64,000 nt of DNA from Balaenoptera acutorostrata (taxonomy: Eukaryota; Chordata; Mammalia; Artiodactyla; Balaenopteridae). Made by a program: the position numbers and the translations under genes. How positions within the stretch are numbered: the stretch's first letter is position 1; every line of letters begins with the position of its first letter. Below the pieces are notes generated by a model. It made no database searches, was not told the origin of the DNA, and worked only from the letters and a program-made list of their open reading frames with translations. Of this stretch, positions 16,858 to 62,357 are shown piece by piece. The DNA lies in contig NC_080079.1 in NCBI RefSeq assembly GCF_949987535.1, forward strand, positions 49,587,000-49,650,999, read 5' to 3'.

Positions 16858-17190
16858 CACCGGGTCCGCGGTAACTGCTGCAGTGCTTCCGGAGGCCAGC
16901 AGGGGGAGGCACTGCCGACCCCAGCCTGTTTGCAGAGGGCGCCGGCGCAGGGCGCGGCTCCAGTGCGCAGGCTCATGGGAGCCTCCAGGATTGGATGGCA
17001 CCGATCTCGCAGGGCCGGCGGGCTCCCGCGGGAACCCGACTGGCAAGTGGGCTGGGGGCAGGTGTGTCGGTTGGAGCCAAGCTGGGCCGGCGGGGCAGGT
17101 CCAGGTGAGGAAAGATGGCGGGGCCCCGGCGGGACGTGGGGGAGGGTAGAGGGGGCTGCTGCGGTGGGGCGTGAGAGGGCAGGCTTGGGC
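16858..17190 (+). promoter_or_regulatory. CpG island, likely promoter of the + strand gene
   Basis: By eye there are about 27 CpG dinucleotides in roughly 320 bases, against almost none in the neighbouring kilobases. It includes 'gcgccggcgcagggcgcgg' and 'gccggcggg' clusters. 'aaagatggcgg' at 17111-17121 fits the YY1 consensus, which in mammals often lies at transcription starts or over the first ATG. Methylated CpG decays, so this stretch has probably been kept unmethylated in the germ line. Direction is inferred from the putative first coding exon; bidirectional activity is possible. Confidence 0.6.
17115..17145 (+). CDS. Putative first coding exon of an unrecognised gene
   Basis: ATG at 17115 has a strong Kozak context (A at -3, G at +4: aaagATGG) and reads MAGPRRDVGE plus one extra base before a GT at 17146 (GAGG/GTAGAG). 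The extra base means the next exon must supply two bases, which the strong exon at 29063 does (GC, giving a Gly codon). It lies in the CpG island and overlaps a YY1-like site, as in many mammalian housekeeping or testis genes. Against it: the exon is tiny, the donor is only average, and an alternative donor (CAG/GTGAGG at 17105) lies just upstream and could end a non-coding first exon instead. Product unknown. Confidence 0.4.
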
Positions 17191-17199
17191 CCACCCAAT

Positions 17200-17622
17200 G
17201 GCCTTGAGAGGAAGATGCCTTGATGCCCACTGAAGGAGTGGACTGTGTCTCCAGCTACCACAGGGAGGCCTCCTGGGCTGGATTCGGGCGGGCCCTGGGC
17301 AAAGTGAGGCCGGAGTCCGCTGAAGCCTTGCGGGGAGACAGCCTGGGCAGTGTGATGCCCAGCTGTGCTGTGACATGTGTCATGGGTCCTGTGTGTCACA
17401 GGTTTGGGACAGGAAACACTGGCTCTGTGGTAAAGAAGGCCTTGAACTCTTGCTGAGGACTGTGGAACCGCTGTGATTGGTAAGAAGCCATAATCAGGTA
17501 CTAAGACACAGTCTCTGCTGCCTGGGCTGGGGAGGTTTGGAGGCCGAGAGCTCCATTCTCACTCAAGGACAGTGAGGGCTGAAGGGCCTAGAGAGAAACA
17601 GAGCAGTAATTCATGATTAATT
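17200..17622. other. Unassigned stretch downstream of the CpG island
   Basis: Still fairly G+C-rich, with no recognised repeat or exon. Probably the start of intron 1 if the gene model holds. Confidence 0.4.
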
Positions 17623-17624
17623 CC

Positions 17625-17745
17625 ACAGCTATTTTTGAACACCTCCTGTGTGCTAGGACTGTTCTAGATGGGCAGGGCCCCTGCCTTCATGGAATTATAT
17701 CCCAGGTGGGAGAGAGCCTGTCAAGGCTGAGTCCTGGGATTTTGC
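17625..17745 (+). repeat. Ancient LINE-type relic, left part
   Basis: 'cctcctgtgtgctaggactg' and 'ctgccttcatggaattatat' follow the old motif 'tgtgccaggcactgttctag...cctgccctcatggagctta'. It appears to continue after an L1 insertion at 18095. I do not name the family with certainty (L2/CR1-like). Confidence 0.45.
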
Positions 17746-17864
17746 CTTGCCTACTTTTGCCTTGCTTTTTGATGAGATGGGGAAAACTGTAGGTGAGAGG
17801 TAGGTTTCATTTTCGGAATGGTTGGAATCAAAAATTGTTTTAGACATATTATGTTGAGATGCCT

Positions 17865-18095
17865 AGTAGGTTTTCTCCCAACATGCAGCATATGAACAAT
17901 ATACTTGGAAAAAATTTTACACTAAACTCCATACACCCACCACCTAGACCCTACCATTAATATTTAGCTACACTTGTTTTTTCACATGCCTGTTCATCTC
18001 ACCATCCCTCTCTCCATCTGTTAATCACCTGGTATATATATATTTTTTATTGTGGTAAAATACACATAACATAAATTACCTAGTAGATTTTTAAG
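17865..18095 (-). mobile_element. L1 3'-region fragment
   Basis: 'tttttattgtggtaaaatac' followed by 'acataacataaattacctag' and upstream 'actccatacacccaccacct' match the reverse complement of an L1 3' UTR (L1M-type). It interrupts an older repeat. Confidence 0.6.
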
Positions 18096-18955
18096 TTAAG
18101 ATGTCATATAGGCCATTGGAAATTTGAGTCTGAAGCCCTAGGGGATGTTAGGGCTAGAATTGGTCTTTGGAATCATCACCGCATAGGTGGTATTTAAACT
18201 AAAGGACTAGGTGAAACCACCTAGGTTGAGAGCGTACATAGAGAAGAGTAAGGAAGCCAAAAAAGAGGGAGGTGGTGGCCAACCATGGTGAATGCTACTG
18301 TGCAAGATAGTTTGGCAATTAGGAGGATTTTAATCATTTTAACAAGAACAACTTTAGTGGAGTAGAGGGGCCTTAAGGTCAAGTGGAATTTTGTTTTTAA
18401 GATGGAGGAAACTAGAATATATTTATATGCCAGTGGGATTGAACTCATAGAAAGGGAGAAATGATGCAGATGAGGGGAACACTGCAGGGGAGGTATGTAA
18501 ACACCTGAGAGGGGAGGAGACTCCAGAGTAGGTGAGCAGTTGGCTTTGAAGTGAACAGGAACACATATTCCGTTGTATCTAGAGGGAAAGCCGAGACAAA
18601 TGCAGATGCGGACAGGTGGTCAGAGGCATCATCTGTCTGTGAAGGCAGTCACTGGCTGAGAGCAAGGGCAGCAGGGGAAAGGAGAAGAGGTGTTAGGAGA
18701 CACATGTGACATAGTCCTTCTGGAGAACGGGAAAGTGAACTAAGTACAGAAATGGAATTGGATTGCTAGGCAGTGCTGAGTGCCCGTTTGAGATGTGTAG
18801 TCGTGAAAGAGTGGGATCAAGCTAGTGGGGTTGTGTGGCTTCCCATGGATGGGAAGGGTGTTGAGAAGTTTAGGCGCGGTAATACATGGAAAACATTTAA
18901 TACAGTGGCAAGCACATGATGAATGTTACCTGTTTGAATTCTTACTTTGTTTTTC
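18096..18955 (+). repeat. Ancient interspersed repeat, right part
   Basis: 'gaatcatcaccgcataggtg' followed by 'gtatttaaactaaaggacta' and 'cacctaggttgagagcgtac' resemble a widespread ancient mammalian repeat that I recognise by pattern but cannot name. The end (18880-18950) has a MIR/L2-type tail. Confidence 0.45.
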
Positions 18956-19382
18956 TTTTGTTTATACAAATGTGACTGAGGAAGGCTGACATTTACCTCC
19001 TGAGAGGATCTTCTCCTGTGACATGTTCTCCAATCACACCAAAGTCCACCGCAGTTTGCAGCTACTTGGAAGTCTGGCTCCCAGTGTGGTTACATTTATA
19101 CAGCTTGATAATTGAGTATGTTTGCTAAAAAGAGACAAACTATAGCAAATAGAGCTTTCCATTTTCAGACTAACTCATAGTCTTGGACTGGAGGGGCTGG
19201 GGGTTTGTCACAGTGGCAGTTCTTATAAGTTTTCATGAATATCTTTTATTACTGCATGTCTTATCGGATCTGATGTAATGGCAATCTACAGAATCTATGG
19301 ATCTCAGATCACCAGGGGAAATTTTCAGTTTCGTGGGTTGTAATTTCTCCGTGACCGCTTGGGCTGTATTATGATACAAATA
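18956..19382. other. Unassigned non-coding stretch
   Basis: No repeat family, exon or RNA gene is recognised here. Confidence 0.4.
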
Positions 19383-19384
19383 AT

Positions 19385-19590
19385 AATAATGGCTGACATT
19401 GACAGGTCTTAAAAGTACCAGGCACTGTCATAAGCACATTATATGCATAATCTTGTTTAACTGTCATCTCAACTCAGTGAGGCAGGTACTATTATTATCT
19501 CTATTTTTCAGATGCAAAAATAGGCTCCAAGGGGTTAAGTAACTTGCCCAAGGTACACATGGTCTGATCTCCAGTTTCTGCTGCATACTT
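19385..19590 (-). repeat. MIR SINE relic, well preserved
   Basis: 'taccaggcactgtcataagc', 'ggcaggtactattattatct' and 'ttaagtaacttgcccaaggt' match MIR in reverse complement over nearly full length. Confidence 0.85.
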
Positions 19591-19621
19591 CAACTTTTTT
19601 TTTTAAAGACCTTGGCCATCA

Positions 19622-19870
19622 CTCATCTACACTGTAGTGGAGTAGGCAAGATAATGGACTGAAGCAGATTGCCTGGGTTCAAAAACTGCCACATACTAGC
19701 TCTGTGACTTTGGACAAATTATTTAACCTCTGTGTGCCTTTGTTTCTTTATCCATGAAATGGGAATAATAATTGTACCTGATGATAGGGTTCTTGTGAGG
19801 ATCACATGAATTAATATACTTAATAAGCCTAAATTAATGCCTGGTTATGTAAATGCTGCACTACCACCTA
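19622..19870 (+). repeat. MIR SINE relic, well preserved
   Basis: 'gattgcctgggttcaaaaac', 'tagctctgtgactttggac' and 'tttctttatccatgaaatgg' match sense MIR nearly end to end. It lies about 30 bases from the preceding antisense MIR. Confidence 0.85.
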
Positions 19871-19874
19871 CCCG

Positions 19875-20440
19875 GTAGTGCAGCCATGGTGGTATGTGTA
19901 CTGATTGATTGACTCCCCTAAAATCATTCTCTAAGGTTCCTACTACTGGTCTAGGTTGAGTTTGGGAATACTCCTAACTCGGGGATCATCTTTGTTTCCT
20001 CTGATTTTATTATCTCTCTGAGGGAAGCAAACATACCAATTTGCTTCTAGGTGCAGAAAACAACTTGGATTTCATTCAGATTCATCTGACCAGTGATGTT
20101 CATTTAATTTGTCCTGGCATTGCAGTACCACTTAAAGGGAAATAAGGCTTGGGGAGTAATGTGATTCCATTTTGCCCTTGCCAGATCAGCAGCCTATTAG
20201 AGGGATTTGGTTAGAAAGGCCAATGGGCTATATAACCAGTGCTGGGCACAGTGTATGGTAAATGATGTGGGTCAAGGGGCTGCACATGAATGTGTTCTGA
20301 AATGATCTGTAAAATTGAGACCTGCTGTGATGTGTTGCTTCAGTTACTAAAAGCAACTGAGCAGCCTTGGCATGGGAGGCCAGTGAAAGTTCTAAAAGAT
20401 GTTTTCTGGTAGACAGCAGGTAGACTAAATGCATGGTATA
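19875..20440. other. Unassigned non-coding stretch
   Basis: No repeat family, exon-like segment or RNA gene is recognised here. Confidence 0.4.
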
Positions 20441-20442
20441 AA

Positions 20443-20605
20443 GTAAGGGTTCCTAATGGGTCTGTGTCAGGATAATCAGGAGAGTTTTATGAAGCTTTGC
20501 AAAATGATAGGCTTCATATTCACAGATTCTGAATCAGTAAGTCATGATGGGGTTCTGGAATCAATCTATTTTTTAAGAGCTCCCTGAATGACTCAAATGT
20601 GTACT
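20443..20605 (+). mobile_element. MER5A-like DNA transposon relic
   Basis: 'agggttcctaatgggtctgt', 'cacagattctgaatcagtaa' and 'gatggggttctggaatcaat' follow MER5A order. Confidence 0.6.
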
Positions 20606-20634
20606 TAGCATGGGATATCATTAATGCAAATCAG

Positions 20635-20820
20635 TGCTTTTCAGTCCTGTGTTTTAAAATCACTGTTCAGTTAGCTTTTTAAAAAATACTGATGCTCTGG
20701 ACTCACCCCAGGGTTTCTGAGTCAATTGGCTTGGGCAAATTCTGGACATTTGGTATTGGTATTTTAAAAAAATCTTCTTATGTAATTAACCTGCAACCAG
20801 GTTTGAGAATCGCTGGTGTA
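20635..20820 (+). mobile_element. MER5-like DNA transposon relic
   Basis: 'atactgatgctctggactca' with 'ccccagggtttctgagtcaa' and 'aggtttgagaatcgctggtg' fit a MER5-family end. It is the second of two adjacent copies. Confidence 0.6.
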
Positions 20821-20821
20821 A

Positions 20822-21033
20822 ATAATCAGCTAGATTTCCCTCCATAGTTTAGTTACTCCTAGATTGAACATAGACATAGCTTCAGGTATCATCTTATCAG
20901 GAGAGTAAAAAAATTAGTATTTCTAAAGTTTCCCAACGCAGATGTTCAATTTAATAATCAGGTAACAAAGATATGAATTGATGATTGAATTAGCGTTTAT
21001 CACTGGGCAATGAAGATTTCATCAGGTTTTCCC
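20822..21033. other. Unassigned non-coding stretch
   Basis: No feature is recognised here. Confidence 0.4.
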
Positions 21034-21034
21034 T

Positions 21035-21565
21035 GGGGAGGAGAATTAACATTTACTGAGACCTTTATGTGTAATCTCAATCTTTTTTTTTTTTTAAACT
21101 TTATTTATTTATTTATTTTTGGCTGTGTTGGGTCTTCATTGCTGCACGCGGGCTTTCCCTAGTTGCAGGGAGCAGGGGCTACTCTTAGTTGCGGTGAGCA
21201 GCTTCTTACTGTGGTGGCTTCTCTTGTTGTGGAGCACGGGCTCTAGGCGCACGGGCTTCAGTAGTTGCAGCACGCAGGCTCAGTAGTTGTGGCTCGCGGG
21301 CTCTAGAGCACAGGCTCAGTAGTTGTGGCACACGGGCTTAGTTGCTCCACAGCATGTGGGATCTTCCCGGATCAGGGAACGAACCTGTGTCCCCTGCATT
21401 GGCAGGCGGATTCTCAACCACTGTGCCACCAGGGAAGCCCCTGTAATCTCAATCTTACAACAACTCTGGGGGGTGTGTATTATTCCCATTTTGTAGGTGA
21501 GAATTTGGGGGCTAAGGGAGGTTAAGTAACTTACCCAAGATTTACACCCGGATGTGTACAGCTCC
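21035..21565 (-). repeat. MIR SINE split by a CHR-2 SINE
   Basis: The left part (21035-21084, 'taacatttactgagaccttt') and the right part (21457-21565, 'tattcccattttgtaggtga', 'ggttaagtaacttacccaag') join into one reverse-complement MIR once the inserted SINE and one copy of the target duplication are removed. Confidence 0.75.
21085..21441 (-). mobile_element. CHR-2-type SINE with target-site duplication
   Basis: Reverse-oriented SINE: T-rich start, 'tggctgtgttgggtcttcat', end 'tgccaccagggaagcccc'. The 15-base direct repeat 'tgtaatctcaatctt' at 21070-21084 and 21442-21456 is the target-site duplication, so it is a typical L1-mobilised insertion. Confidence 0.9.
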
Positions 21566-21584
21566 ATAGTCTAGGTTCCATTTC

Positions 21585-21765
21585 CTCAATGATTCTTAAC
21601 TTTACACAATTGGATTACCTGGGGAACTTTAATGATCAATTCTTGGATCCCATACTCAGAGATTCTGATTTCATTGATTTGGTATAGCCAGGAATCGAGA
21701 TTTTGCAAAGCTGTCTATCCAGATAATTCTAATGTGCAGCTGAAATTGATAGTCTCTGCATTATA
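21585..21765 (+). mobile_element. MER5A-like DNA transposon relic
   Basis: 'tcaatgattcttaactttac', 'catactcagagattctgatt' and 'gataattctaatgtgcagct' follow MER5A. Confidence 0.6.
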
Positions 21766-21879
21766 CCATGTAGCCTTCTGGTGGTCTAATCATTTTCCTT
21801 TACACCAGTAGGTTGTCCCTCTGTAGAGTGCTGTGACTGGGTTCCTTGCCTACATACATTCACATATCTTAGTGTCCTT

Positions 21880-22095
21880 TCTGCTCCTTCCTGCCTCTTA
21901 ATAAATACGTATTGAGTGCCCAGTTTGTGCCATTTTTCTTGGTGCTGAGATGACACAGTGGTAACAAGACAGACCAAGTCACCAGCCTCATGGTACTTAT
22001 ACTGAGGGAGATACACAGTAAACATATGAGCAGATAAATTTTGACTTACATACGTAAGCAAACTTTAAGGTAATGCAAAGTGCTTTTAAGAAAAA
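21880..22095 (+). repeat. Ancient LINE-type relic
   Basis: 'acgtattgagtgcccagttt' followed by 'tgacacagtggtaacaagac' and 'gcctcatggtacttatactg' follow the old mammalian repeat motif seen also at 17625 and 60370. Confidence 0.5.
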
Positions 22096-22109
22096 TAAAA
22101 CAAGGTAAT

Positions 22110-22570
22110 GAGTAGAGTGATCCTAACAGCAATGATGAGCATTCCAGTTGCTTCACATCGTTGCCAGAACTACTTTGTATTGTTTTGTGTGTGTATGTTT
22201 TATTTTAGACATTCTAATAGGTATGAAGTGGTATCTTATTATTGTTTTTTTTTTGCATTTTTCTGTTGACCAGTGGTGTTGAACATCTTTTCATATGTTT
22301 ATATACCATCTGTATTTTTTCTTTATAAAGTGTCTGTTGAAATTTTTCGCCCATTAAAAAAAAATTGGGTTGATTTTCTTCTTTTTGAGTTGTAAAGGTC
22401 TTTATATGTTTAGGATATAAGTCCTTTTTCAGATATGTGTTTTCTCCCAGTCATGATTTTTCTTTGTATTATTTTTTAATGATATATTTTGAGGAACAGA
22501 AGTTTTTAATGTTTATGAGTCCAATTAGCAAGTTTTCTTTTGTGGTTTATGCTCTTAATGTCCTGAGACA
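22110..22570 (-). mobile_element. Old L1 fragment
   Basis: 'attctaataggtatgaagtg', 'gtgttgaacatcttttcata' and 'ggatataagtcctttttcag' are the reverse complement of the L1 ORF2 3' region. Confidence 0.8.
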
Positions 22571-22574
22571 TATA

Positions 22575-24472
22575 TTCTCTCACTGTTTGGGAAGCTGGAA
22601 GTACGAAATCAAGGTGTCAGCAGGGCCATGCTCTCTCTGAGGGTTCTTGTGGAGCACCTGTTTTTCCTCTCCCTCTATTTTGATGGTTGCTGCCAATCCT
22701 TGGCAGCACAATTCAGTTGGTTGACACCATTCAAATCAAAGCAGTCTTCCCTCCACCCGCAAAAGTCATGTCCTTACCATATACAAAATACATTTGCTCC
22801 ATCTCAACATCCTCAAGAGGCTTGACCTATTCCAGCATCAACTATGAGTCTAAAGTCTCATCAAAATTTCATCAACTCAGAATGTCCCAAATCTTATCTT
22901 ATAAATCATCCAAATCAGATATTTGTGAGACTCTGAGTATGGTCTATACTGGGGCAGAATTCATCTCCATTTGTTTATCTTGAAACCTAGAAGACAATGG
23001 TGTTATAGGCATAGGTTAGACATTCTCATTCCAGAAGGGAGAAAACAGAAGGGGAAAAAAGGTTCACAGGTCCCAAGTGAGTCCACACAGCAGGGCCAGT
23101 TTCATTAGGTTTCAAGGCCTGGGCATAATTCTCTGGCTTGATCCACCCTCTGGGCCCATGGAGGCCCTGTGGGCCTCTGAGCTGCCCTCAGTGAAGTCGA
23201 CTTAACTGACCTTGGCCTGCAGCAGCAGATGAGATGCACCCTCTGGATGGCCTGTTTCCTGATTGCAGAATACAAAAAGTCTGACAGCCTTCCTACATTT
23301 CATTCTCCTACATTTCATGTCCTCTTTGTTCCAGGCTAGCAGTGTTTCTGCTGGGAGGGATGGCTGGATCCATGAGTCTTACACCTAATCTCTCTGGTGA
23401 AAGGTTGTCCAGCTGCTTCTTTAGTCCTGTTTCCAGAGCATGATATCTTGGACAGGTTGAGAATTTTACAGATCATCAAGTGTTGGTTCCTTTTTGCTTA
23501 ATAATTTCTTCCTCAATTGATCTCTTTCCTCTTGCATTTTACTCTAAGCTGCAAGGAGAAACTGTGGTCACATCTTTCACACTTGGCTTAGGAATCTCCT
23601 CAGCTAAACATCCAAGTCATTACTTACAAGTTTTACTTTCCACCCAATGGCAGAACACAGTTTAGCCAAGTTTCTGCCACTTAGTAACAAGGATCACTTT
23701 TCTTCCAGTGTCCAATAATATGTTCACCATTTCCTTTTAAAGTCCTCACCAGAAGAACCTTTTCAAGTTTGCATTTCTAGCAACAGTCTGTTCTTGACGA
23801 TACATGTAATTCTCTAAGCATTCTCTATGCTTTTTCTAAAATTCCCCTCTTTTCTTTCTGACTGCTCACCAGAATTGCCTTTAACATTTGTATTTATACC
23901 AATAGTTTTTTTAAGGCAATCTAAGCTTTTTCTATTATGTGCCTCAAAACTCTTCCAGCTTCTACCCATTACCTGATTCCAAAGCCACTTCCACATTTTT
24001 TAGGTAATTATTACAACAGCACCACACTTTCTGGTACCAGAATATGTATTAGTTTCCTAGGTTTGCCATAATAAAGTACTACAAACTGGATGACTTTTAA
24101 AAAGGAGAAATGTATTCATTCACATTTCTGGAGGCAAAATTCTGAAATTAAGGTGCCAGCAAGGCCATACTGTCTCTGAAGTCTCTATGGAAGGATCTTT
24201 CCTTGCCTCTCTCTGACTTTTAGTGGTTGCCAGTAATCTTTGGTGTTCCTTGGCTTATAGACATATGACTGCAATTTTTGCCTCTGTTATCACATGGATT
24301 TCTTCCTCTGTGTCTGTGTCCAGATTTCCCTTGTCTTATAAGGACATCAGTCATTGGCTTAGGAACTCATCTTCACTTGATTATACCTGGAAATACCCTA
24401 TAAATTTACATTCACAGGTACTGGGGGTTAGGACTTTAAAATATTTTTGGGGGGATGCAGTCACATAGGAGA
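22575..24472 (-). mobile_element. Degenerate MaLR (MLT1-type) provirus, antisense
   Basis: An old endogenous retrovirus-like element lies in reverse. LTR sequence at the right (24046-24472: 'gtattagtttcctaggtttg', 'ctgggggttaggactttaaa') is followed leftward by a primer-site region ('ttctggtaccagaa') and a MaLR-like internal region with 'ctgattccaaagccacttcc'. The left LTR is partial (22575-22700: 'gaaatcaaggtgtcagcagg'). The internal part has no long ORF, only short broken frames, so it is inactive. Exact left boundary uncertain because an L1 fragment abuts it. Confidence 0.65.
24046..24472 (-). repeat. LTR of the MaLR element (element 5' side)
   Basis: The most complete LTR: 'cataataaagtactacaaac' at one end, 'cttataaggacatcagtcat' in the middle and 'gtactgggggttaggacttt' near the other, all in MLT1 order in reverse complement. 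Confidence 0.65.
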
Positions 24473-24474
24473 AA

Positions 24475-24655: not shown

Positions 24656-24659
24656 ATAG

Positions 24660-29062: not shown

Positions 29063-29166
29063 GCCAGTATCTCCGAGAGTGGGTCGAGATAGAACTTTTA
29101 AAGGAATTGGGAACAGTTACGTTCCTGGGAGGTGGGCGTCTGGGGCCTCCACGTGGCAGCTCAGAG
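29063..29166 (+). CDS. Candidate internal coding exon 2 of the unrecognised gene
   Basis: The splice signals are the best in the window: a pure pyrimidine-rich acceptor (tctttcattctcttctctcc/AG at 29061-29062) and a near-consensus donor (CAGAG/GTGAGAG at 29167). Length 104. Read with two bases finishing the previous codon, the exon is open and looks protein-like (QYLREWVEIELLKELGTVTF, then LGGGRLGPPRGSSE). It begins in phase 1 and ends in phase 0, fitting both the putative ATG exon at 17115 and the exon at 32650. Hydrophobic and charged residues alternate as in a beta-strand or short helix region. It lies about 110 bases upstream of the EGLN3 retrocopy and is not part of EGLN3. Product unknown. 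Confidence 0.55.
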
Positions 29167-29180: not shown

Positions 29181-30845
<1,665 letters not shown>

Positions 30846-32649: not shown

Positions 32650-32758
32650 GGTTATCTCAAACTCACTGCACTAACAGACACCAGAAATGGGCATGTGTTT
32701 CTGATCAAAGCTGATTGTTCTGGAAGTACTGCTGACTCTTATGGAAGATTTGAAATTG
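32650..32758 (+). CDS. Candidate internal coding exon 3 of the unrecognised gene
   Basis: Acceptor 'gttcttgtgtttctatag' precedes an open segment in phase 0: GYLKLTALTDTRNGHVFLIK, then ADCSGSTADSYGRFEI plus one base. A GT follows (TTG/GTGACC). Length 109, so the exon ends in phase 1, exactly what the exon at 53864 needs (GC completes Gly). An alternative donor at 32769 (TTG/GTATAG) would end in phase 2 and break the chain. Residues look like amphipathic beta strands rather than low-complexity noise. No repeat family covers it. Frame stays open past the donor to 32919, so length alone is weak evidence. Product unknown. Confidence 0.5.
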
Positions 32759-34015: not shown

Positions 34016-35315
34016 AATATTTTCAATCATGTATTTGCGAGGTAGAAGCTTGGATATCATTCTTGGTGGTTTTTATTTAACAATGAGGTCTTTGACGTTT
34101 CAGTGTTATTTCCAGAGGAGGCCTATCACTTAAGTCCATTACCTCAGTACCAGTCACAAGGCCACTGCTGTCCTTGTAAAAAGAGATTTTTTCCCCTTTG
34201 TCAAAGTAGAATTTTCAAAAATTAAAAATGTGACTCATTAAAATTTGAAATGAAACCATGTTAAGGATTTTATTCAATTTATTTATTAATGAAGCAACCA
34301 GGAAGGTGGCCAAGGTAGTTCAGAGGACATTTTGAGGATCTAGGCTTTTATATGTATTTTGAACGAAGGTTAGAGTAAGAATGCTAGGTTAGATTTTAAA
34401 AGCCTGGTTAATGTGTGACAGGGCAATAAATTATAATCTTTGGTACCATCTTTTCTCTCAGAAATTATTTGTTTCCTAACTGGCTGAAAATCTATAGGTT
34501 AACATGTAATTTTACTAAGTCTAGGACTTTTAATCAACAGTAAACAATGAGTTGTACAAAGTACAATTTCTTTATATAATTAAATAATCCTTGGGAGGGC
34601 CTTTTAAACATCATCCTCATATAACATTGAAAGGATATGCCACCTATGTTTTTGCTTTACCTCCATGTTTTAAATAATCTTTCTTAACATACTATATCAA
34701 AGTTTTAAAATATGTTTCCAAACATTAACTTTTAGATTAAGATTATAGTAATCTTATTTCATTTGCAGGTAAACTAATTGAGTCACCAGACCAAAAAAAC
34801 CTCTAGATTTCAACCAATGGGAGCAATGTAACATCATCTTACAGGCCTATTATGGCAAAGATTAGAAGAGAAAAAAATGTTTATCCTGTGTGAGGACATT
34901 TTATAGATTGAACATGACCTCCTTGAAGATAGGCTCTGAAGTTAATTCTTATCCTCCAATATCGAATCTGCAGCACCTAATTCAGAATAAGTTTGGCATT
35001 AAAAGAATTAACTCGCTGAGTTACAGTGACTAAATAAATGAGTAATGATATGTCAAAACTGTGAGAACTCGAGTTGTCTAAAATTCCTTTACATTGTATG
35101 TTTGACCAGGTGAACAACAATTGTGTGCTGGCCCCAGGATACTAATTCGACCTTCTGTCTGACTCTGAGAACACAAGGCTCAGTACCTGCAGAAACCTTT
35201 TACCCATCTCATCCGGGAATGGGGGCAACATGTCTTCATCGGGGAACACTACAGCAGAGTCTGGTAGGTTCTTATGCATTGTGCACCGTGGTGGACATGG
35301 GCAGCAGGAGGAGCC
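34016..35315. other. AT-rich unassigned stretch
   Basis: Short chance ORFs only. A splice-like segment near 35110-35263 was examined and rejected. Confidence 0.4.
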
Positions 35316-42093: not shown

Positions 42094-43971
42094 CTTTTTT
42101 TTTTTAAACATCATTATTGGAGTATAACTGCTTTACATTGGTATGTTAGTTTCTGCTTTATAACAAAGTGAATCAGTTACACATATACATATATCCCCAT
42201 ATCTCTTCCCTCTTGTGTCTCCTTCCCTCCCACCCTCCCTATCCCACCCCTCTAGGTGGTCACAAAGCACCGAGCTGATCTCCCTGTGCTATGCGGCTGC
42301 TTCCCACTAGCTCTCTATTTTACGTTTGGTAGTGTATATGTGTCCATGCCACTCTCTCACTTTGTCCCAGCTTACCCTTCCCCCTCCCCGTATCCTCAAG
42401 TCCATTCTCTAGTAGGTCTGCGTCTTTATTCCCGTCTTGCCCCTAGGTTCTTCATGACCATTTTTTTTTTTTTTTAGATTCCATAAATATGTGTTAGCAT
42501 ATGGTATTTGTTTTTCTCTTTCTGACTTACTTCACTCTGTATGACAGACTCTAGGTCCATCCACCTCACTTCATTTCAATTATCAATTTCATTTCTTTTT
42601 ATGGCTGAGTAATATTCCATTGTATATATGTGCCACATCTTCTTTATCCATTCATCTGTCGATGGACACATAGGTTGCTTCCATGTCCTGGCTATTGTAA
42701 ATAGAGCTGCAATGAACATTGTGGTACATGACTCTTTTTGAATTATGGCTTTCTTAGGGTATATGCCCAGTAGTGGGATTGCTGGGTCATATGGTAGTTC
42801 TGTTTTTAGTTTTTTAAGGAACCTCCATACTGTTCTCCATAGTGGCTGTATCAATTTACATTCCCACCAACAGTGCAAGTGGGTTCCCTTTTCTCCACAC
42901 CCTCTCCAGCATTTATTGTTTGTAGATTTTTTGATGATGACCATTCTGACTGGTGTGAGATGATATCTCATTGTAGTTTTGATTTGCATTTCTCTAATGA
43001 TTAATGATGTTGAGCATTCTTTCATGTGTTTGTTGGCAATCTGTATATCTTCTTCGGAGAAATGTCTATTTAGGTCTTCTGCCCATTTTTGGATTGGGTT
43101 GTTTGTTTTTTTGATATTGAGCTGCATGAGCTGCTTGTAAATTTTGGAGATTAATGCTTTGTCAGTTGCTTCATTTGCAAATATTTGCTCCCATTCTGAG
43201 GATTGTCTTTTCATCTTGTTTATGGTTTCCTTTGCTGTGCAAAAGCTTTTAAGTTTCATTAGGTCCCATTTGTTTATTTTTGTTTTTATTTCTATTTCTC
43301 TAGGAGATGGGTCAAAAAGGAACTTGCTGTGATTTATGTCATAGAGTGTTCTGCCTATGTTTTCCTCTAAGAGTTTGATAGTGTCTGGCCTTACATTTAG
43401 GTCTTTAATCCATTTTGAGTTTATTTTTGTTAGGGAGTGTTCTAATTTCATTCTTTTACATGTAGCTGTCCAGTTTTCCCAGCACCACTTATTGAAGAGG
43501 CTGTCTTTTCTCCATTGTATATTCTTGCCTCCTTTATCAAAGATAAGGTGACCATATGTGCGTGGATTTATCTCGGCTTTCTATCCTGTTCCATTGACCT
43601 ATAGTTCTGTTTTTGTGCCAGTACTGTACTGTCTTGATTACTGTAGCTTTGTAGTATAGTCTGAAGTCAGGGAGTCTGATTCCTCCAGCTCCGTTTTTCT
43701 TTCTCAAGATTGTTTTGGCTATTCGGGGTCTTTTGTGTTTCCATACAAATTGTGAAATTTTTTGTTCTAATTCTGTGAAAAATGCTATTGGTCGTTTGAT
43801 AGGGATTGCATTGAATCTGTAGATCGCTCTGGGTAGTATAGTCATTTCCACAATGTTGATTCTTCCAATCCAAGAACATGGTATATCTCTCCATCTATTT
43901 GTATCATCTTTAATTTCTTTCATCAGTGTCTTATAATTTTCTGCATACAGGTCTTTTGTCTCCTTAGGTAA
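42094..43971 (-). mobile_element. 5'-truncated L1, antisense, best-preserved ORF2 tail in the window
   Basis: Reversed 3' end ('attattggagtataactgct', 'aacaaagtgaatcagttaca') leads into ORF2. Two open pieces (43537-43923 and 42576-43451, minus strand) cover about 400 residues of the ORF2 carboxyl half, ending with the cysteine motif [18 protein letters not shown]. An indel near 43555 separates them. A short direct repeat 'tagttctt' (42086-42093 and 43972-43979) may be the target duplication. It lacks ORF1, the endonuclease and most of the reverse transcriptase, so it cannot move itself. Confidence 0.93.
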
Positions 43972-44651: not shown

Positions 44652-46128
44652 AGATTTTTTTTTAATTTATATTTTTTATTGGAGTATAATTGCTTTACAA
44701 TGTTGTGTTAGTTCCTGCTGTACAACGAAGTGAATCAGCCATATGTATACATATATCCCCTCCCTCTTGGACCTCCCTTGCATCCCCCCCCACCCCGCCC
44801 ATCTAGGTCATTAAGAGCACCGAGCTGAGCTTCCTGTGCTATACTGCAGGTTACCACTAGCTATCTATTTTACACATGGTATTGTATTAATGCCAAACCT
44901 AATCTCCCAAGTCATCCCACCCTTCCTTCCCCCCATGTGTCTGCACATCCGTTCTCTACATCTACGTCTCTATTCCTGCCCTGGAAGTAGGTTCATCTGT
45001 ACTATTTTTCTAGATTCCACATATATGCATTAATATACAATATTTGTTTTTCTCTTTCTAACTTACTTCACTCTGTATGACAGACTCTAGATTCATCCAC
45101 ATCTCTACAAATGACCCAATTTCGTTCCTTTTTATGGATGAGTAATATTCCATTTTATATATGTACCACATCTTCTTTATGCATTCATCTGTCAGTGAAC
45201 ATTTAGGTTGTTTCCATGACCTGGCTATTGTAGATAGTGCTGCAGTGAACATTGGGGTACATGTGTCTTTTTGAATTATGGTTTTCTCAGGGTATATGCC
45301 CAGTAGTGGGATTGCTGGGTCATATGGTAGTTCTATTTTTAGTTTTTTAAGGAACCTCCCTACTGTTCTCCATAGTGGCTGTATCAATTTACATTCCCAC
45401 CAACAGTGTAAGAGGGTTCCCTTTTTTTTACACCCTCTCCAGCATTTATTGTTTGTAGATTTTTGATGATGGCCTTTCTGACCAGTGTGAGGTGATAACC
45501 TCATTGTAGTTTTGATATGCATTTCTCTAATGATTAGTGATGTTGAGCATCTTCTCATGTGCCTCTTGGCCATCTGTATGTCTTCTTTGGAGAAATGTCT
45601 ATTTAGATCTTCTGCCCATTTTTTGACTGGTTTGTTTGTTATTTTGATATTGAGCTGCATGAGCTGTTTGTATATTTTGGAGATTAATCCCTTGTCAGTT
45701 GCTTCGTCTGCAAATATTTTCTCCCATTCTGAGGGCTGTCTTTTTGTCTTTTTTATGGTTTCCTTTGCTGTGCAAAAGCTTTTAAGTTTAATTAGGTCCC
45801 ATTTGTTTATTTTTGTTTTTATTTTCATTACGCAAGGTGAGTCAAAAAGATCTTGCTATGATTTATGTCAAAGAGTGTTCTTCCTATGTTTTCCTCTAAG
45901 AGTTTTAGAGTGTCTGGTCCTACATTTAGGTCTTTAATCCATTTTGAGTTTATTTTTGTGTATGGTGTTAGGGAGTGCTCTAATTTCATTCTTTTACATG
46001 TAGCTGTCCAGTTTTCCCAGCACCACTTATTGAAGAGGCTGTCTTTTCTCCATTGTATATTCTTGCCTCCTTTGTCATAGATGAGGTGACCATAGGTGCA
46101 TGGGTTTATCTCTGGGCTCTCTATCCTG
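44652..46128 (-). mobile_element. 5'-truncated cetartiodactyl L1, antisense, nested
   Basis: Reversed 3' end ('tttattggagtataattgct', 'gtacaacgaagtgaatcagc') runs to ORF2 sequence ending near 46128. An open piece of 256 codons (45058-45828, minus) includes the ORF2 C-terminal cysteine motif, but a short stretch before it ([15 protein letters not shown]) reads in a shifted frame and then returns. Confidence 0.92.
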
Positions 46129-53863: not shown

Positions 53864-54021
53864 GCAAAGATTGGAAGGGAGAGGACTCTGATATGAAAAA
53901 CCTGGATCTATGTTTGCCTACATGGTATCATGATAACTTGCCTTCATCAAGTCATGACAACTTGCCTTCATCAAGTCATGACAGCTTGCCTTCATCAAGT
54001 CAGGAAACGACACCTATATCA
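53864..54021 (+). CDS. Candidate coding exon 4 of the unrecognised gene (contains 8-residue repeats)
   Basis: A good pyrimidine-rich acceptor (gttctttccttttctttgttcag) precedes an open segment entered in phase 1: GC completes a codon, then KDWKGEDSDMKNLDLCLPTW, then three copies of HDNLPSSS or HDSLPSSS and QETTPIS. With the donor at 54022 (ATCA/GTGAAT) the length is 158 and it ends in phase 0, matching the exon at 59626. That donor is weak. If unused, the frame continues (VNCELKLEEEGSLLINYG) to TGA at 54076, with AATAAA at 54300, giving a possible terminal exon. The segment is acidic and Ser-rich, probably disordered. No repeat family covers it. Product unknown. Confidence 0.5.
53929..54000 (+). 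repeat. 24-bp tandem repeat, three units, in a candidate exon
   Basis: Three consecutive 24-base units (53929-53952, 53953-53976, 53977-54000) differ at one base each (gataac, gacaac, gacagc). Period is divisible by three and keeps the reading frame open. Confidence 0.95.
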
Positions 54022-54299
54022 GTGAATTGTGAGCTAAAACTAGAAGAAGAGGGATCTCTGCTAATTAACTATGGCTGATACCTAAATCACTGACTGAGCT
54101 CTCTAAAGAATAGATGTCTAATTTATCTCCTTACTGCAATGATTTCTCAATTCTCTGTCACTCTGATATTGAAGATGACCAAAACAGGGATTTGGAAGAG
54201 TGGGACTTTTGCAACTGAAGAAAACCCCTTTCACTGTTCTTTTGGAAATTTTACTTATTTTAGCATCTATTTTATTTTGTGCTACTAATAGAGACACAA

Positions 54300-54305
54300 A
54301 ATAAA
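54300..54305 (+). promoter_or_regulatory. Candidate polyadenylation signal for a short isoform
   Basis: AATAAA lies 222 bases after the TGA that ends the read-through of candidate exon 4. It would allow a terminal-exon isoform. AT-rich sequence makes chance occurrence likely. Confidence 0.25.
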
Positions 54306-54329
54306 TTTCACATAAAATTTGAAGCACCT

Positions 54330-55262
54330 TTAGATATATTGATGATAGAATTTTTAATTGATAGGGGCAGCATGGTGCAGTGTCTCCGAACTATGGAATA
54401 GTAGATGGCTGTGAAAAAATCTGGGGCAAAATCCTCACCTTGATATATTACTTTCCTTGTGAAGATACTGCCAGTGTTAGAGCACAGAAAGGGAAATATA
54501 TTTTCATCTTATGGGTGCCTTGTATTTTTTTTTTCTTATCTAGCTATTGGAGCTTTGGGACTTCCATCATGTTACTGTCCTCATACTCACTCTCTGTAGG
54601 TTCCAGCATTAATAGAGATAAAAATCAGTACCAAGAATAGGCACTGCCTCCCCTACTTTCCCAATTTGGCTGCCACCACTACCCAAGGCTGACAGTTGTG
54701 CTGCTGCTTTGAAAAACAACATTGTATTTTGGTTGTTCTCTCATGTAGGAGTCTGTCCATTCCTCCGTGACATGCAAGGTGGCCGTATCAAGACCACTAT
54801 CACATCTCTGGCTGGCAGTCTCTCTTAGTGTAATCCAGGGTTCTCAGCTCCACTGTTGATACTTTTCTCTGATCAGAATGATTTTCTACTTGGAGAGATA
54901 TTTGGAAGTGAGAAACTTCACAGAATGTCTTGAGTAGATGCTTTATATAACCATACTGACTCCCTTCTAGAACTGAGTATATTTTATGCTTTGGGTGTTT
55001 TCCCCTATATTTTATGGCTTGACTTTTCTAGGATGAGTTTTGATATGCTTTAAAGTTTACTTTTAGAAAAGAGTATCTTAGAACATTTCTGGGTATTTTT
55101 TAGAATATGTTGTTTAGAATAAAATCGCTAGTTTTATTAGAATTTGCCTTGCTTATATTTCATGAATTAGTTTGATGTTATAGTTGCTTGATGCCCTTTC
55201 AGTTATGATGCTGTCCCTAGGAATTGTCTAGACTTCATAGACTTGTATGTAGATGACTAGAT
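54330..55262. other. Unassigned stretch
   Basis: Chance ORFs only; no repeat or exon recognised. Confidence 0.4.
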
Positions 55263-55264
55263 TT

Positions 55265-55412
55265 AGAAGATAGATCAATTAATTTTTATTCCAACCCTCA
55301 TTTTAAAGGTGAAGAAACTAATTCCCAGAGAGCTGAAATGATTTGTCTGTGATCATACAGCTCTTCAGTCACAGCGGAAAGACCAGGAACCAGGCTCCTA
55401 TCTCTTAGTATT
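55265..55412 (-). repeat. MIR SINE relic
   Basis: 'ttttaaaggtgaagaaacta', 'gtgatcatacagctcttcag' and 'aaccaggctcc' are decayed reverse-complement MIR. Confidence 0.65.
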
Positions 55413-55413
55413 A

Positions 55414-56080
55414 CTGTTTACACTTTGTCCTCATAAATCTTTGCATATGCAGTGCAGAAAAGTTAACTTAGGCTCCTTGGAAAATTTTATCCAGCCTTTT
55501 CTTTGACATTACTTTGATTCAGTGAGCACTCTCCAAAAAGACCCGGTATCTTGATAATTTAGAATATTTCTCCTTGTGCCTTCTTGATACTGTTAGCCAA
55601 ATCACATTTCATTCAATCAAAGACATGTTAGAGTCCTAAGAGAGCCTTATTTGAATTACAACTATCTAGAACAGTTTGCTTCTTTGATAAATATAATCAA
55701 GTTTATTTGGAAACATGACTTGAAATATGTCTCAGGTTTAAATTATGCTAGGACTTCTCACTTGGGTGATGTCACTTTTTCTTAGTAAATGAGTTGTGCG
55801 CAAATGACTTTTTAACGTCTTGTTGGAGATGGGAGGGATTGTGTCAGTGTATAAGCATTGCCCCATTTCTTTTCCTCTGTTCCATTTCATTCATAATCTC
55901 CACATTCCTACCGTAATTACCTGAAATTAATTTTTAGAGATTTGCTTTACCAATTAGTGTTGATAAACTATTTTTCAGGACTAGGTCAACTCTGTAGAAC
56001 TCATTTCATTTAATTTATTGGTCATCCACGTAGTTTAATGAGAAGGAATCTTTGGGAACATTTTCCCTGGATATTTTAAA
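55414..56080. other. Unassigned stretch
   Basis: No feature recognised. Confidence 0.4.
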
Positions 56081-56084
56081 GTAA

Positions 56085-57400
56085 AAATTAAAATACACAG
56101 AACAATACTAACAAAAGAGAGCTGGTATAGCTATAGAGAGATCAGAAAGAAGAGACTTAAAAGCAAACAGCATTAGGCATTAAGAAGTCACTGTATAATA
56201 CTAAAAGGTTTAGTTCACAAGGAAGATATAAAATTCTAAAATTATAAGCACCGAATAATAGCTTCAGAATATATAAATCAGAATTACAAGTAGTAATTGA
56301 TAACTTCACTATGATAGTGGGCCATTTTAAAATATCTCCTTTATTAATAGATTAGAAAGTTAGTTAAGAGTATAAAAATTTTTTAAAAAGTCAATTAGCA
56401 AGCTAGATATAATGAATGTATATAGAATTGCATCCAAAAATTAGAGAACACAAATTTTTTTCAAGCATACATGGACCATTTATAAAAATTTATCATGTAC
56501 CACATCAAAATATATCATAATAAATGTCAAATAGTCTTTATAGTACTGACTGTGGTCTCTGATATAAAGAAATTCAGTTAGAAGTCAACCACAAAAAGAT
56601 GAAGCATACATTTGGAATTTAAAGACACGTACTTCTAACTCATGAGTCAAAGAAGAAGTCATAATGGAAGTTTAAAATTTTAGAATATAATAAAAACAAA
56701 ATTACTATCTATAAAAACTTGTGGTTTACTCACTATGCAGTAGTTAGCATATGTAATTATATAATCTATACCAATACATTTATAATGATACCAGCTATGA
56801 AGTATGTAGGAGTAAATCTAAGAAAAGGTGTTAATTGAGAACATTATAAAATGTTTTGATGGCTAGCCATATAATATTAATGAATAATAAGACATAAAAT
56901 GTTTTGATGGCTAGCCATATAATATTAATGGATAATAAGACTTAATATAACAAAGATAACTTTTTTTCTTAATTTTAAACCACAAAATTAATTTAACTTA
57001 GTTTCAATACAAATTTCAAATTTTGTCTGTTTGTATATGAGGGAGAGAAAGATTTAATCAGCTGATTCAAAAATGTACTTGGGAAAACAGAAGGCCAAGA
57101 ATAGGCAGTATTAGGACAGGAAGGTAAAGTGTATATGTGGTGGAAGGACAACTGGGATAACTGCAGGTTATCAAGACTTGTTATAAACCTATAGGAGTTG
57201 AGGAAATGTGGTACTAATATAGGAAGTGGCAAGTAAGACCAATGAAACTGCATAGAGATTCCAGAAGATGACCCATGTATATATGGGAACTTTTTCTGTG
57301 ACCAGTGGCATTGTGGATCGAATGGTCTATGCAATTAATGGTGCTGGTACAATTGGTTATTCCAATAAGAAAGATAAAACTGAATTACCACCTGTGAGTA
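56085..57400 (+). mobile_element. Old L1 ORF2 relic, sense
   Basis: 'aagaagtcactgtataatac', 'caccgaataatagcttcaga', 'gatagtgggccattttaaaa' and, later, 'aagaccaatgaaactgcata' follow sense L1 ORF2 order with heavy decay. Confidence 0.6.
56846..56941 (+). repeat. 48-bp tandem duplication
   Basis: Two adjacent 48-base copies (56846-56893 and 56894-56941), each containing 'gatggctagccatataatat', with one mismatch (atgaat versus atggat). It lies inside the old L1. Confidence 0.95.
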
Positions 57401-57401
57401 A

Positions 57402-58685
57402 AGGTCGACAGAACATTTTCTTCTTTACGATGAGAAAAATGATCTTGTGTTAGCCTTCTAACACCCTGTTTCTCTGGAAGCCTGAAAAATGGTAGACTAT
57501 CAGTTGTGTTACCAGGCAGCATTGATTATGGTAAAACTGACTCCTGGGCTAGAAGGATTATGACTAGGACTGTAAACGCCTTGCTGAAAGTATTGATACA
57601 AATGGGATGAATGTGGGAAGCTCCTTGCTGCAGTCTCTAGAGGTTAGGCTCATGAGTTGTTACAAGAGGTCCTGCTTCCTGTGTAGCTTGAGGCTTCTAA
57701 GCCAGGGTAACTGCTACCCATCCATGTCATCTCACTTCCCTCCACTTGAGGCGACACTAGAATGCCATTAGAACTCCTGATGAGGGCAAGCCTTAGGCTA
57801 TTCTGCTGATATGTATCTCCCTTCCTGTATCCTTCTGCAAAGCTCTCCTAGTGCCAGGTGTGGCCTACTGGATCTTGTGAATGTCTTTTGAATGCAAGAT
57901 CATTGTTGGTGGTTGAGCAGAATGGGCAAGGTACACTTTACACTGAAATTTATTCTAAGTGAATGAAATCCCCAAATATTAAAAGCAAAGCTTAAAAAAG
58001 TTTAGAAAAATACATGAGAATTGTTATCTTTTTTTACCCGCATAAGGAAGGATTTTTAAAATTTATGTTTTATATGTTATTCAAAATGGCAATTAACCAA
58101 TTCACTAGAATTTAATATATTCTAAAATGGTCAAGTTATTGCTAAAGTATAATTTAACTTTATATTTTAGGCAATGCTTATTTATGTTAGACTAAAAACT
58201 TAATAAGTTGTATTAACTTAATAAGTTATATTTGTCCAGTGAAACGAATATGCTTGATAAGAGTGCTAGGTAGTTGTTGCATCTTTCCATTAATATGCTT
58301 GCTTTTAAAATCGATTGTGCTTAGGTCCATATTTCTGTAATGATGTCTGTATATACGCCTACAAGCATATATATGCCACTAGGAAGTATTCCAAGTCTAG
58401 TAAATTTCATGGAATTAAGCAAAATATATACATATGCATATACACTAACAAGAAGGGAAAGGATTAATAAGTTTCACAAAATAAGAATCATCAAAAGATG
58501 CTTCAAAAAAGATGAAAAGACATAACACAGAGTGTGGAAAGACATAACACAGGGTGTGGCTAGAGATGCTGCATGAGAAACAGATGGGAGCTGAGGGTGG
58601 GAAATTAGGCAGAGGCCAGACCATGGCAGGCCTCCCAGTCTTTGGACCTGTTGTTCCTTTTGCTCAGGATGCTTTCCTGTCTCTT
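57402..58685. other. Unassigned stretch with a 22-bp tandem duplication
   Basis: 'aaagacataacacag' plus 'agtgtgg' or 'ggtgtgg' is repeated at 58516-58537 and 58538-58559. No gene recognised. Confidence 0.45.
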
Positions 58686-58687
58686 TG

Positions 58688-58948
58688 CCTAGCCCTTCCT
58701 TCTGTCTTTTAGGTACATGGTGGTTAAGTATCACCATACTCTGTTACTGCATTAACATTTATCACAGCTGTAATTTTTCTACGCTTGCTTGTGTATTTTC
58801 TCTCTCCTCATCAGAATATATATGCTCCACAAGGGCAGAACACATGCCTCTTATTCAGTGTTTTATCCGTAGCACTTAGAACAGTATCTGCATGTACTAG
58901 GACCCCCAGAGAAGAACTGTCAAATGAATGGATTAATTGAAGCAGAAT
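58688..58948 (+). repeat. L2 LINE 3' end
   Basis: 'tgctccacaagggcagaaca', 'ccgtagcacttagaacagta' and 'caaatgaatggattaattga' follow the L2 3' end. Confidence 0.7.
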
Positions 58949-58949
58949 T

Positions 58950-59620
58950 GAGGGCTAAAATATTGGTAACTAAATCTTTATTTTAATGTGATTTTTCCCT
59001 TTAATTATATTCAATTTTGTCTACCAGTGGGCCAGGTACTGTATAGAATGGTGCAAAGTCAACAAAGTGGACTAAAGTCCATTGGGCAGAACAAAATCTT
59101 GTGGCAGAGACATACCTAGAATTACTGGATTAGATTGCAAGCGCTAAAATAAAGTGTTAGGAATTTTATTTTCACAATAAACTAAATGTGATAAGCATTC
59201 ATTATAAGAATCTCTTCTGGGCTGTAGTAATAATCTGTTTATCTGTTTGTTTTTTTTTAAGAAAAATGAAGTTTATTTTTATGAACTTTTGGCAAATAAC
59301 TTGGGTGATTCAGTAGAAATAATTTATATGTGCATAGTACTCTACACTCTGTTTTGACAGATTGGAAAATATTTAATAGGGAGATATACATTTCAAATGA
59401 TTTTCTAGGAGTAGAAATCACACTGTGATTGTGGTTTTTTTTTTTTTTGTGATTGTGGTTTTAATTCTATTATTGAATACCTTATTGCTCTTCTTGAGAA
59501 GCTATAGAAATCATTTTCTTTAAACTATATATTCTTAAAATCATAGCCATAATTTTTTCCTTTCTTATGCCTGTAGGTTTTTGAAAATGAAGTTAACTCA
59601 GGGGAAGTAAAATTGTTTTC
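58950..59620. other. Unassigned stretch upstream of a candidate exon
   Basis: 'gtgattgtggttttt' is duplicated on both sides of a T run at 59424-59465. The rest is unrecognised AT-rich sequence. Confidence 0.4.
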
Positions 59621-59625
59621 TTCAG

Positions 59626-59678
59626 GATTTTCAACATAGTGATGATTTTGAGGATCAGTTTAAAAAAGAGACAGAAAG
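59626..59678 (+). CDS. Candidate coding exon 5 of the unrecognised gene
   Basis: Acceptor 'aattgttttcttcag' and donor AAAG/GTATAA bound 53 bases that read DFQHSDDFEDQFKKETE plus two bases (AG). It enters in phase 0 and leaves in phase 2; the next candidate exon begins with T, completing AGT (Ser). The peptide is acidic and charged, like the segments on either side. Such a short exon could occur by chance. Its value is that both phases fit. Confidence 0.5.
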
Positions 59679-59679
59679 G

Positions 59680-60365
59680 TATAACTAATATGCTTATTTA
59701 GTGAGTTTTTTGCTTATTCATATTCATAGCTAGCCCTCTGAGTAGAGACAGTGAGTAATGGTCCTCAGATGTTTGATTAGTTTTAAAAATATAGTTCTTT
59801 GTAGTAAGTACAACCTGATTTGTCTAAAAATAGGGTGTATTTATGATCTCATAAATATGGTATTAACACAAGAAAAGATATTCCTAAAGAATTAAATTTC
59901 TCTGTCATATCAACAATTACCCAGTTCCAAAGCCTTTGTAAATGTGTTTGGAGCTCTTGGAGGGGGCAGTGTACTTGAGGTAAGGTAAAGCTCAGTACAC
60001 AACTAAATTTTATGAGACATTATATGCTTCCAGAAAGAAAATAAAATACTAGAAATGGAATTATTAGCATGGCGAATACTTGGTACTATAAATGAAAAAA
60101 ATTTTTAAAACTGGGAGAAAAGTAAATTTCCATTAGAAAAACAAAAGAAATAGCAGCTTTCATGCTTATAAAATGTTCAAATTTAGGTGTTACATGCAAA
60201 AACATCAAATAAGGAAACATTTTTTTGAGCCGTATTTTCTTAGAGATTTATAAGTAATGTTAGCTACAGTCACTGGAAGAGCACTGCATAGTAATGTGTA
60301 TAGTATGCAACTTGTATAAACAACTTTCACAAGTGCATTAAGTGAACAAATAATATTAATTCAAA
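59680..60365. other. Unassigned stretch
   Basis: AT-rich; no repeat or exon recognised. Confidence 0.4.
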
Positions 60366-60369
60366 AGGC

Positions 60370-62070
60370 ATTTTGAGATAATATTGTATGCTACTAATAT
60401 ATACTAATTAGTAGATACTAATTATATGCTAAGCACTGTATACAAATACAAAGTATTAATAGCTCTTGCTCTCTAGTTTATAGTTTAATTGGGGACACAG
60501 ACATGTAAAAAACAAATTTAAATACAGTGTAGTAAATATTATTATAGAGTCAGAGTCCAAGGATTGTGGGTACAGAAGACAGAGAACTATGCAAGGGGGA
60601 GAGTTCCCCACCACCTTCTTTGAAGAAAAGATATTTTGGTTGGATTTAGGATCGGATCTTAAATAAATAGAAATTCAGCAGGTGAAAAGGGAGGGAAGAA
60701 AGTTTCAAGCTGTGGGGAGAAGTTTGAACAGAGGTAAGGAGCTATGAAAATATCTTATTAATGGTGAGAAATGTGATGTGTCAGGAGTTATAAGGTATAC
60801 GTGAATTGGAATGCCAGGAAACTTGAGAAGATGAGAGACAGAGCAAAAATATAATGTGGGCCAGAGTGTGAAGGAACTCAATATATGTGAAACCAAGGAG
60901 TACACATTTTATTCAGTCTGTTAGAATGAAAATGAAGCACAGATGGAGTCTTTTTTGCATTTTCCTATCTGTCTGTCAATCACCTATCTGGAAGGAGGAT
61001 TGCTGGTAATGAGGTGAAAGATGGCTGGCAGGAAATGGAGAACAAGTTGATGTTTACAGTAACCCAAGAAAAGGTGGGAAGGAGGAAAGAGCAAGAAACC
61101 TGAAATTACCCACAGAAACAAAAGGAAAAGACATTTACTTTGTTAAGGCTGAGGCATAAAGGGCATAAAGGAAATTAATAGAGATAAGGATGAAAAAGTA
61201 GGCAGGGGACAGACTACCAGCATCCTCAATTTAATGAGTCCAGTAAGGAGCCTGAGTTTATCCTGACGTTAGTGAACAGGTATAACAATAAAATTTGAAT
61301 TTTGGGGAGAATTTTCTCTAGAAATTGGAGATTAGACCCAGAAATCAAATTAGGAGCCTTTTGCTAAGTGGGGTTGCAAATGAAAGTGCAAAGAGAGCAA
61401 AGCAGATAGCATAAGTGAGTAAGCTGAGTAGTGAGAAGTTGGAGAGGAAACAGAAAGGGAGTGTGGGCTCATATTTGAGAAATCTGTTAGAGTATATAGA
61501 GCAGTTATTTAGACAGAGATAGAAAGATTAAAGGGTCTTCTGTTTTTAAGGTGAGAGAGAATCAAGTATTCTTATGATATTGTAGATAGAGAGAATTTGT
61601 AGATAGGGAGAAATTAGTTATATATAAGAAAAGATAATTTTAGAAAAATCTCTCAGAGGAGACAGAAGGCATAGAGAACATGGAAGGATTAATTCTGAAC
61701 GTGGAGAAAGTAAGGAGTAATGAAGAATGTTGATGCATTTTTAAAGAGAGTAAGTTGAAAGAGTTCTTACTTTCTGGCTTACATTTTATAGAAGGGACTA
61801 CATTTTTACTAAAGCAGAGAATTGAGAAGGGGACTACATGAGGGTGGTAATACGGCAGTTAGGAATGGTAGAGGAAATGGAATAGAGACGTACGAGTGTT
61901 TTCCAAATGGCTCTCTGCTGATACTAGAAAACCCAGGACTCCAGTACTCTTCGTCCACCACAGCCTGGATAGAGGAGGAAAGAAAGTGAATAGGTGGCTT
62001 GATCCAAGGTGGCTAGTTTGCAAGCCAGGTGAAAGGGAGAGGAGTTGGAGTTTGTGATCGGACATTCGAA
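60370..62070 (+). repeat. Ancient interspersed repeat, same general class as 17.6-18.9 kb
   Basis: 'atatgctaagcactgtatac', 'gtttaattggggacacagac', 'gttgatgtttacagtaaccc' and 'gaaattggagattagaccca' have the order of an old purine-rich mammalian LINE-type repeat. I recognise the pattern but cannot name the family. Boundaries approximate. Confidence 0.4.
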
Positions 62071-62244
62071 CTTTGGAATTATCTCTTCGAAAGTGGGCCA
62101 GTTCCAGGGGCTGACAATAGAAATGGGTGGCTGAACTGAAATGGAGGTGAATGTCAATTGAATAATTAATATAGATTATCAGAGATTCTTTCTTAAATGT
62201 ATACATTCTCTGAAACCATGAACGAATATAAATTTCTTTTCTAG

Positions 62245-62357
62245 TGAGAGTGACCCCAGCTTGTGGACAACCAGTAGCTTCTTTCTAAAAAAGAAGTCGA
62301 GCGGTGAGGATGAAGAGCTTGCAGGGCCTTCCCATACTGACACCCCTACACTTCAGG
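62245..62357 (+). CDS. Candidate coding exon 6 of the unrecognised gene
   Basis: Acceptor 'aaatttcttttctag' and donor TTCAGG/GTATGA bound 113 bases. Entered in phase 2 they read (S)ESDPSLWTTSSFFLKKKSSG, then EDEELAGPSHTDTPTLQ plus one base, with no stop. The exon leaves in phase 1, so at least one more exon must follow to the right of or near the window edge. SSFFLKKKS is a short basic-hydrophobic patch in an otherwise acidic, Ser/Thr-rich context. It lies just after an ancient repeat and is not itself repeat-like. Product unknown. Confidence 0.5.

Follow-up and report, generated by a model that had tools for sequence, protein, structure and literature searches.

The stretch of DNA analysed here (64,000 nucleotides of the minke whale, Balaenoptera acutorostrata; hereafter the window) harbours on its + strand the first coding exons of PTPN20, a known mammalian gene coding for protein tyrosine phosphatase non-receptor 20. 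A sequence-only reading had described six exon-like segments as an unrecognised gene which begins in the window and leaves it at the right edge. Such a + strand protein gene is borne out by homology to PTPN20, and it is the claim of novelty that has to be given up. The features referred to below are the following:

16751-17479, +: candidate promoter and first exon, a CpG-rich stretch followed by GTGATTG/GTAAGA (the stroke marks the exon border)
17115-17145, 29063-29166 and 32650-32758, +: segments 1, 2 and 3, without support as PTPN20 exons
35170-35263, +: PTPN20 start exon, ATG at 35230, reading MSSSGNTTAES-G, then GTAGGT (GT at 35264)
53864-54033, +: PTPN20 exon holding segment 4, coding for KDWKGEDSDMKN...SSSQETTPISVNCE
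53928-54002, +: coding tandem repeat with a 24-base unit, about three copies of HDNLPSSS (Tandem Repeats Finder: 3.1 copies, 96% matches)
54034-54035, +: implied splice donor site, placed from the proteins of relatives; reads CT
59577-59678, +: PTPN20 exon holding segment 5, with a frame shift of one base
62245-62357, +: PTPN20 exon identical to segment 6

A check of the sequence confirmed that all six segments (1 to 3 as listed, then 53864-54021, 59626-59678 and 62245-62357) are bordered by AG and GT, that the first opens with ATG, and that their lengths (31 + 104 + 109 + 158 + 53 + 113 = 568 bases) and junction phases (1, 0, 1, 0 and 2) give 189 codons with no stop. Membership in one gene, however, holds for three of the six only: segments 4, 5 and 6 lie inside PTPN20 exons, as follows from the homology found in two protein searches, while segments 1-3 are without a match. 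With the 189-residue translation as the query, seven matches were obtained among 89 candidates (approximately 104-330 amino acids in length). Four are PTPN20 proteins, from Mesoplodon densirostris (89% over 30% of the query), yak, pig and peccary; the others are two goat proteins annotated as uncharacterised and an ORF, P0006. When residues 1-112 of the pig protein served as the second query, there were eight matches among 27 candidates, and these yielded PTPN20 models of pig (P0008) and yak (P0009), both of 420 amino acids and spanning the entire tyrosine phosphatase profile, as well as a cattle isoform of 400 amino acids (P0010).

Pieces of the window were compared by blastp with nine of the 11 proteins found, the ORFs P0006 and P0011 being omitted. 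The exon at 53864-54033 matched eight of these nine PTPN20 proteins, the remaining one being the Mesoplodon model (P0001), which begins further 3'. Both parts of the frame-shifted exon at 59577-59678 matched all nine, and so did the exon at 62245-62357 (92% to Mesoplodon). The exons stand in the same order as in annotated PTPN20, as expected of an ortholog of its N-terminal region, and the pig and yak proteins P0008 and P0009 agree in exon content and order with the portion present in the window. Judged by this homology, the part of the chain that had been noted as acidic and Ser-rich is the N-terminal region of PTPN20. No phosphatase domain exon was seen in the window among the tblastn matches listed for the relatives' proteins; the catalytic exons lie past the right edge.

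The start of the earlier chain in segment 1 overlooked the exon with the ATG at 35230, which was located by way of the MSSP... start shared by the pig, yak and cattle models. In a fuzzy match, four of its 12 residues differ from MSSPENATAASG and five from MSSPRKDLAESG, which corresponds to an identity of 8/12 to yak and cattle and of 7/12 to pig. Translated together with the residues upstream of it, the start exon matched cattle P0010 (E 1e-11, 70% over 30 amino acids) and yak P0009 (E 0.027) by blastp; among the nine PTPN20 proteins these two species alone were matched, pig not being found, and two tblastn runs gave no match. When 35263 is joined to 53864, the junction reads AESGKDWKGEDSDMKN, against AESGKDPKGEDSDMKN in pig. 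The AG at 35168-35169 is a poor acceptor (score -3.5, on the approximate splice matrix used for the scores given here), and therefore the start exon may begin further 5'.

Transcription may begin near the CpG-rich stretch at ∼17 kb (16.8-17.2 kb). The whole 64 kb contains 12 intervals of 300 nt with GC>0.5 and CpG O/E>0.6, of which two start at 16851 and 16901; segment 1 stands at the edge of these two, so that the chain's reported start in a CpG island is partly upheld. The sequence GTGATTG/GTAAGA at 17473-17479 differs by one mismatch over seven bases from ATGATTG, the exon end that can be deduced from the MIG-start isoforms of pig, yak, peccary and cattle. It is one of five such sites found, and its donor ranks 65th of 3,580. 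Segment 3 was also considered as a relic of the MIG-start exon of these four species, as it shares with it the ATTG before the border and the phase. The site at 17473-17479 is closer, having one mismatch, a stronger donor and a position adjoining the CpG-rich stretch, though both comparisons extend over about seven bases.

The N-terminal 80 residues of the chain, encoded by segments 1-3, had been described as folded, a description for which no support was found: these segments have no match in the nine PTPN20 proteins (blastp), in Pfam or in PDB, and a search restricted to them gave none among 65 candidates of 273-868 amino acids at E<=10. An OB-fold, TPP1-like reading, suggested by the peptide, likewise found nothing in Pfam and PDB. 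The agreement of their phases is easily reproduced. With thresholds as permissive as the segments' own sites (acceptor >=5.0, donor >=-1.2, exons of 50-250 nt), 3,565 chains of an ATG exon plus two exons of the required phase occur in the first 53,800 bases of the + strand; the same span of the reverse complement has 1,074. Raising the donor threshold to >=2.0 leaves 13 and 2, respectively, and with an acceptor of >=7 and a donor of >=4 none is left on either strand. Since many equivalent chains arise by chance, no gene is required to explain why segments 1-3 fit together. An unrecognised gene starting with their 80 residues would account for the fitting phases and the open chain, and the end of segment 3, ATT G, resembles the MIG-start isoforms of pig and yak; against the empty searches and the abundance of chance chains, this explanation is nevertheless hardly credible. 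It had been cautioned at the time that some of the agreement was due to selection; segments 1-3 do not exceed chance, while segments 4-6 go beyond it by their homology. In a self-BLAST of the window at 1e-5, neither the start exon nor any of the six segments was covered by a repeat, although Tandem Repeats Finder does pick up the 24-base repeat in segment 4. The tRNA and Rfam scans of the window were empty.

The junction between segments 4 and 5 (54021/59626) departs from PTPN20 as well. Both borders fall inside coding sequence homologous to PTPN20 by blastp, and both are displaced relative to the homologous exons. At the first of them, the proteins of pig, peccary, cattle, yak and goat continue for four residues (VNCE, VNHK or VNYK), followed by VF(E/Q)NEVNS. 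VNCE is also coded in the window, where the exon extends to 54033. At the second, homology places the true start of the exon at 59577 and not at 59626. The six-segment chain is hence a known gene that was wrongly joined in two places, the 5' end and one internal junction; with this, a false novel gene is removed and the locus receives the name PTPN20.

Two lesions are found in these neighbouring exons. The bases following 54033, at 54034-54035, are CT, and the implied donor is therefore absent. The exon at 59577-59678 starts out as VFENEVNSGEVKLF and, after a frame change of one base at a run of T (59616-59619), goes on as FLQDFQHSDDFEDQFKKETE. Relative to the intact relatives, both a splice site and the frame are thus disrupted, the ancestral donor being deduced from proteins. 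Pig P0008 and yak P0009, which are predicted proteins, are continuous and have a full phosphatase domain, whereas the copy in the window is without the implied donor and is shifted in frame. Eight exon junction choices from the ATG at 35230 were compared (two donors by two acceptors, read-through and three kinds of skipping), of which seven run into a stop in the exons present in the window and only 54021/59626 stays open. The openness of the six-segment chain is explained by this, because the GT at 54022 and the AG ending at 59625 step over both lesions.

The same pair of sites could be read as a bypass by which PTPN20 still works, dropping ∼20 codons together with both lesions and keeping the phosphatase in frame; 54021/59626 would then be a real, cetacean-specific splice form. 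Besides being the sole open choice of the eight, it uses an acceptor, the AG at 59625, that scores 6.9 compared with 4.0 for the homologous one at 59577. Its donor, however, scores -2.5 and ranks 1,040th among 3,580 GT sites, and none of the annotated relatives' proteins was seen without these residues in such a manner, which makes the bypass improbable. It also counts in favour of the segment borders that the donor at 59678, which homology supports, scores low as well (-0.04).

Errors of assembly or sequencing in an intact PTPN20 seem a little less remote, though still unlikely. The frame change sits in a T run and the other PTPN20 exons have no stop; yet two separate lesions, different in kind, would have to fall in neighbouring exons, and the missing donor lies outside any homopolymer.

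The explanation that we consider probable is that 35170-62357 belongs to an ortholog of PTPN20 and comprises its initial coding exons, the amino-terminal part being disabled in the minke whale. With the donor missing from the second of these exons and the third shifted in frame, the gene likely no longer makes a normal protein. Its transcripts would end early or be mis-spliced, and the copy may be under relaxed constraint. Since the four exons otherwise keep stop-free homologous stretches, the decay would be recent. One must bear in mind that this reading, made from sequence, concerns one assembly, that one of the lesions lies in a run of T, where sequencing errors arise easily, that the donor was placed from proteins and that the acceptor at 59626 outscores the homologous one. 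The copy could also be broken while a working phosphatase is retained, either because a second copy is intact or because translation begins at a start codon 3' of both lesions. Extra copies of PTPN20 are reported in human (PMC3335823, PMC9900141), and in the proteins of relatives a Met directly follows the window's last exon (TLQGME). We hold this to be unlikely, if somewhat less so than errors in the assembly.

Decay of PTPN20 is further considered in the light of a second whale. The Mesoplodon model P0001, from the nearest relative of the animal, shows 92-95% identity to the window over the last two exons in it and is anomalous like the window copy: it is a short model labelled LOW QUALITY PROTEIN and covers positions 126-216 of the 234 of the phosphatase profile. 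It differs in that a single frame runs through its counterpart of the frame-shifted exon; the model starts at MRKVFENEV. The short model is weakly suggestive of decay in more than one whale, because shortened models with an incomplete domain also exist for pig, yak and peccary (P0005, P0003 and P0007); pig and yak in addition have their full-domain models of 420 amino acids.

The probable decay of PTPN20 in the whale is the only new point at this locus. Among the matches listed in a search of the open-licence PMC literature, none dealt with PTPN20 in cetaceans, and those pairing PTPN20 with whale or with gene loss were, by title and the start of the abstract, medical only. Gene losses are described for cetaceans, those of hair keratins among them (PMC4195889). 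PTPN20 would resemble these in being broken in a whale and kept in land relatives, here in one genome, and would, if the decay is true, be a testable addition to them. As to the gene itself, FRMPD2 is placed immediately 5' of PTPN20 in all species looked at in one study (PMC3335823), and zebrafish and human cDNA are reported to reveal that the two can be joined in a single long PTPN13-like transcript (PMC3335823, PMC9900141). Mouse Ptpn20 mRNA is reported mainly from brain and testis, with the highest level in testis, and knockout mice are reported to show ventriculomegaly, with phosphorylated NKCC1 elevated in the choroid plexus (PMC9164390).

The tandem repeat within the exon holding segment 4 has counterparts comparable to HDNLPSSS in cattle P0010 and goat P0002 and P0004, while the 420-residue pig and yak models carry a single SSSQ unit, so that repeat length varies between species.

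Several other features of the window were recorded. On the + strand, 29277-29390 codes for 38 residues closely resembling EGLN, the HIF prolyl hydroxylase (best PDB match Egl nine homolog 1, E 9e-21); this is probably a pseudogene fragment, and directly 3' of it stands what we take to be SINE-like sequence. Segment 2 was considered as part of an EGLN retrocopy, a possibility rejected when its peptide with the 3' extension gave no PDB match at E<=10 and no Pfam match. An array of C2H2 zinc fingers occupies 4025-5543 of the + strand. It is read in two frames that overlap, as ORFs 4025-4963 and 4458-5543, and is therefore a zinc-finger gene or a pseudogene with a change of frame. On the - strand, the ORFs within 42576-43923 and 45058-45828 presumably represent fragments of LINE-1 ORF2; the ORFs 42576-43451 and 45058-45828 had no Pfam match at 0.001. 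Finally, the database ORF P0006, whose contigs do not exceed 1006 bases, matches the window at 62009-62491, over the exon located there and its introns, the window's in-frame stops being read as W. Its appearance is that of cetacean DNA which sits in a public assembly and was translated with a different code.
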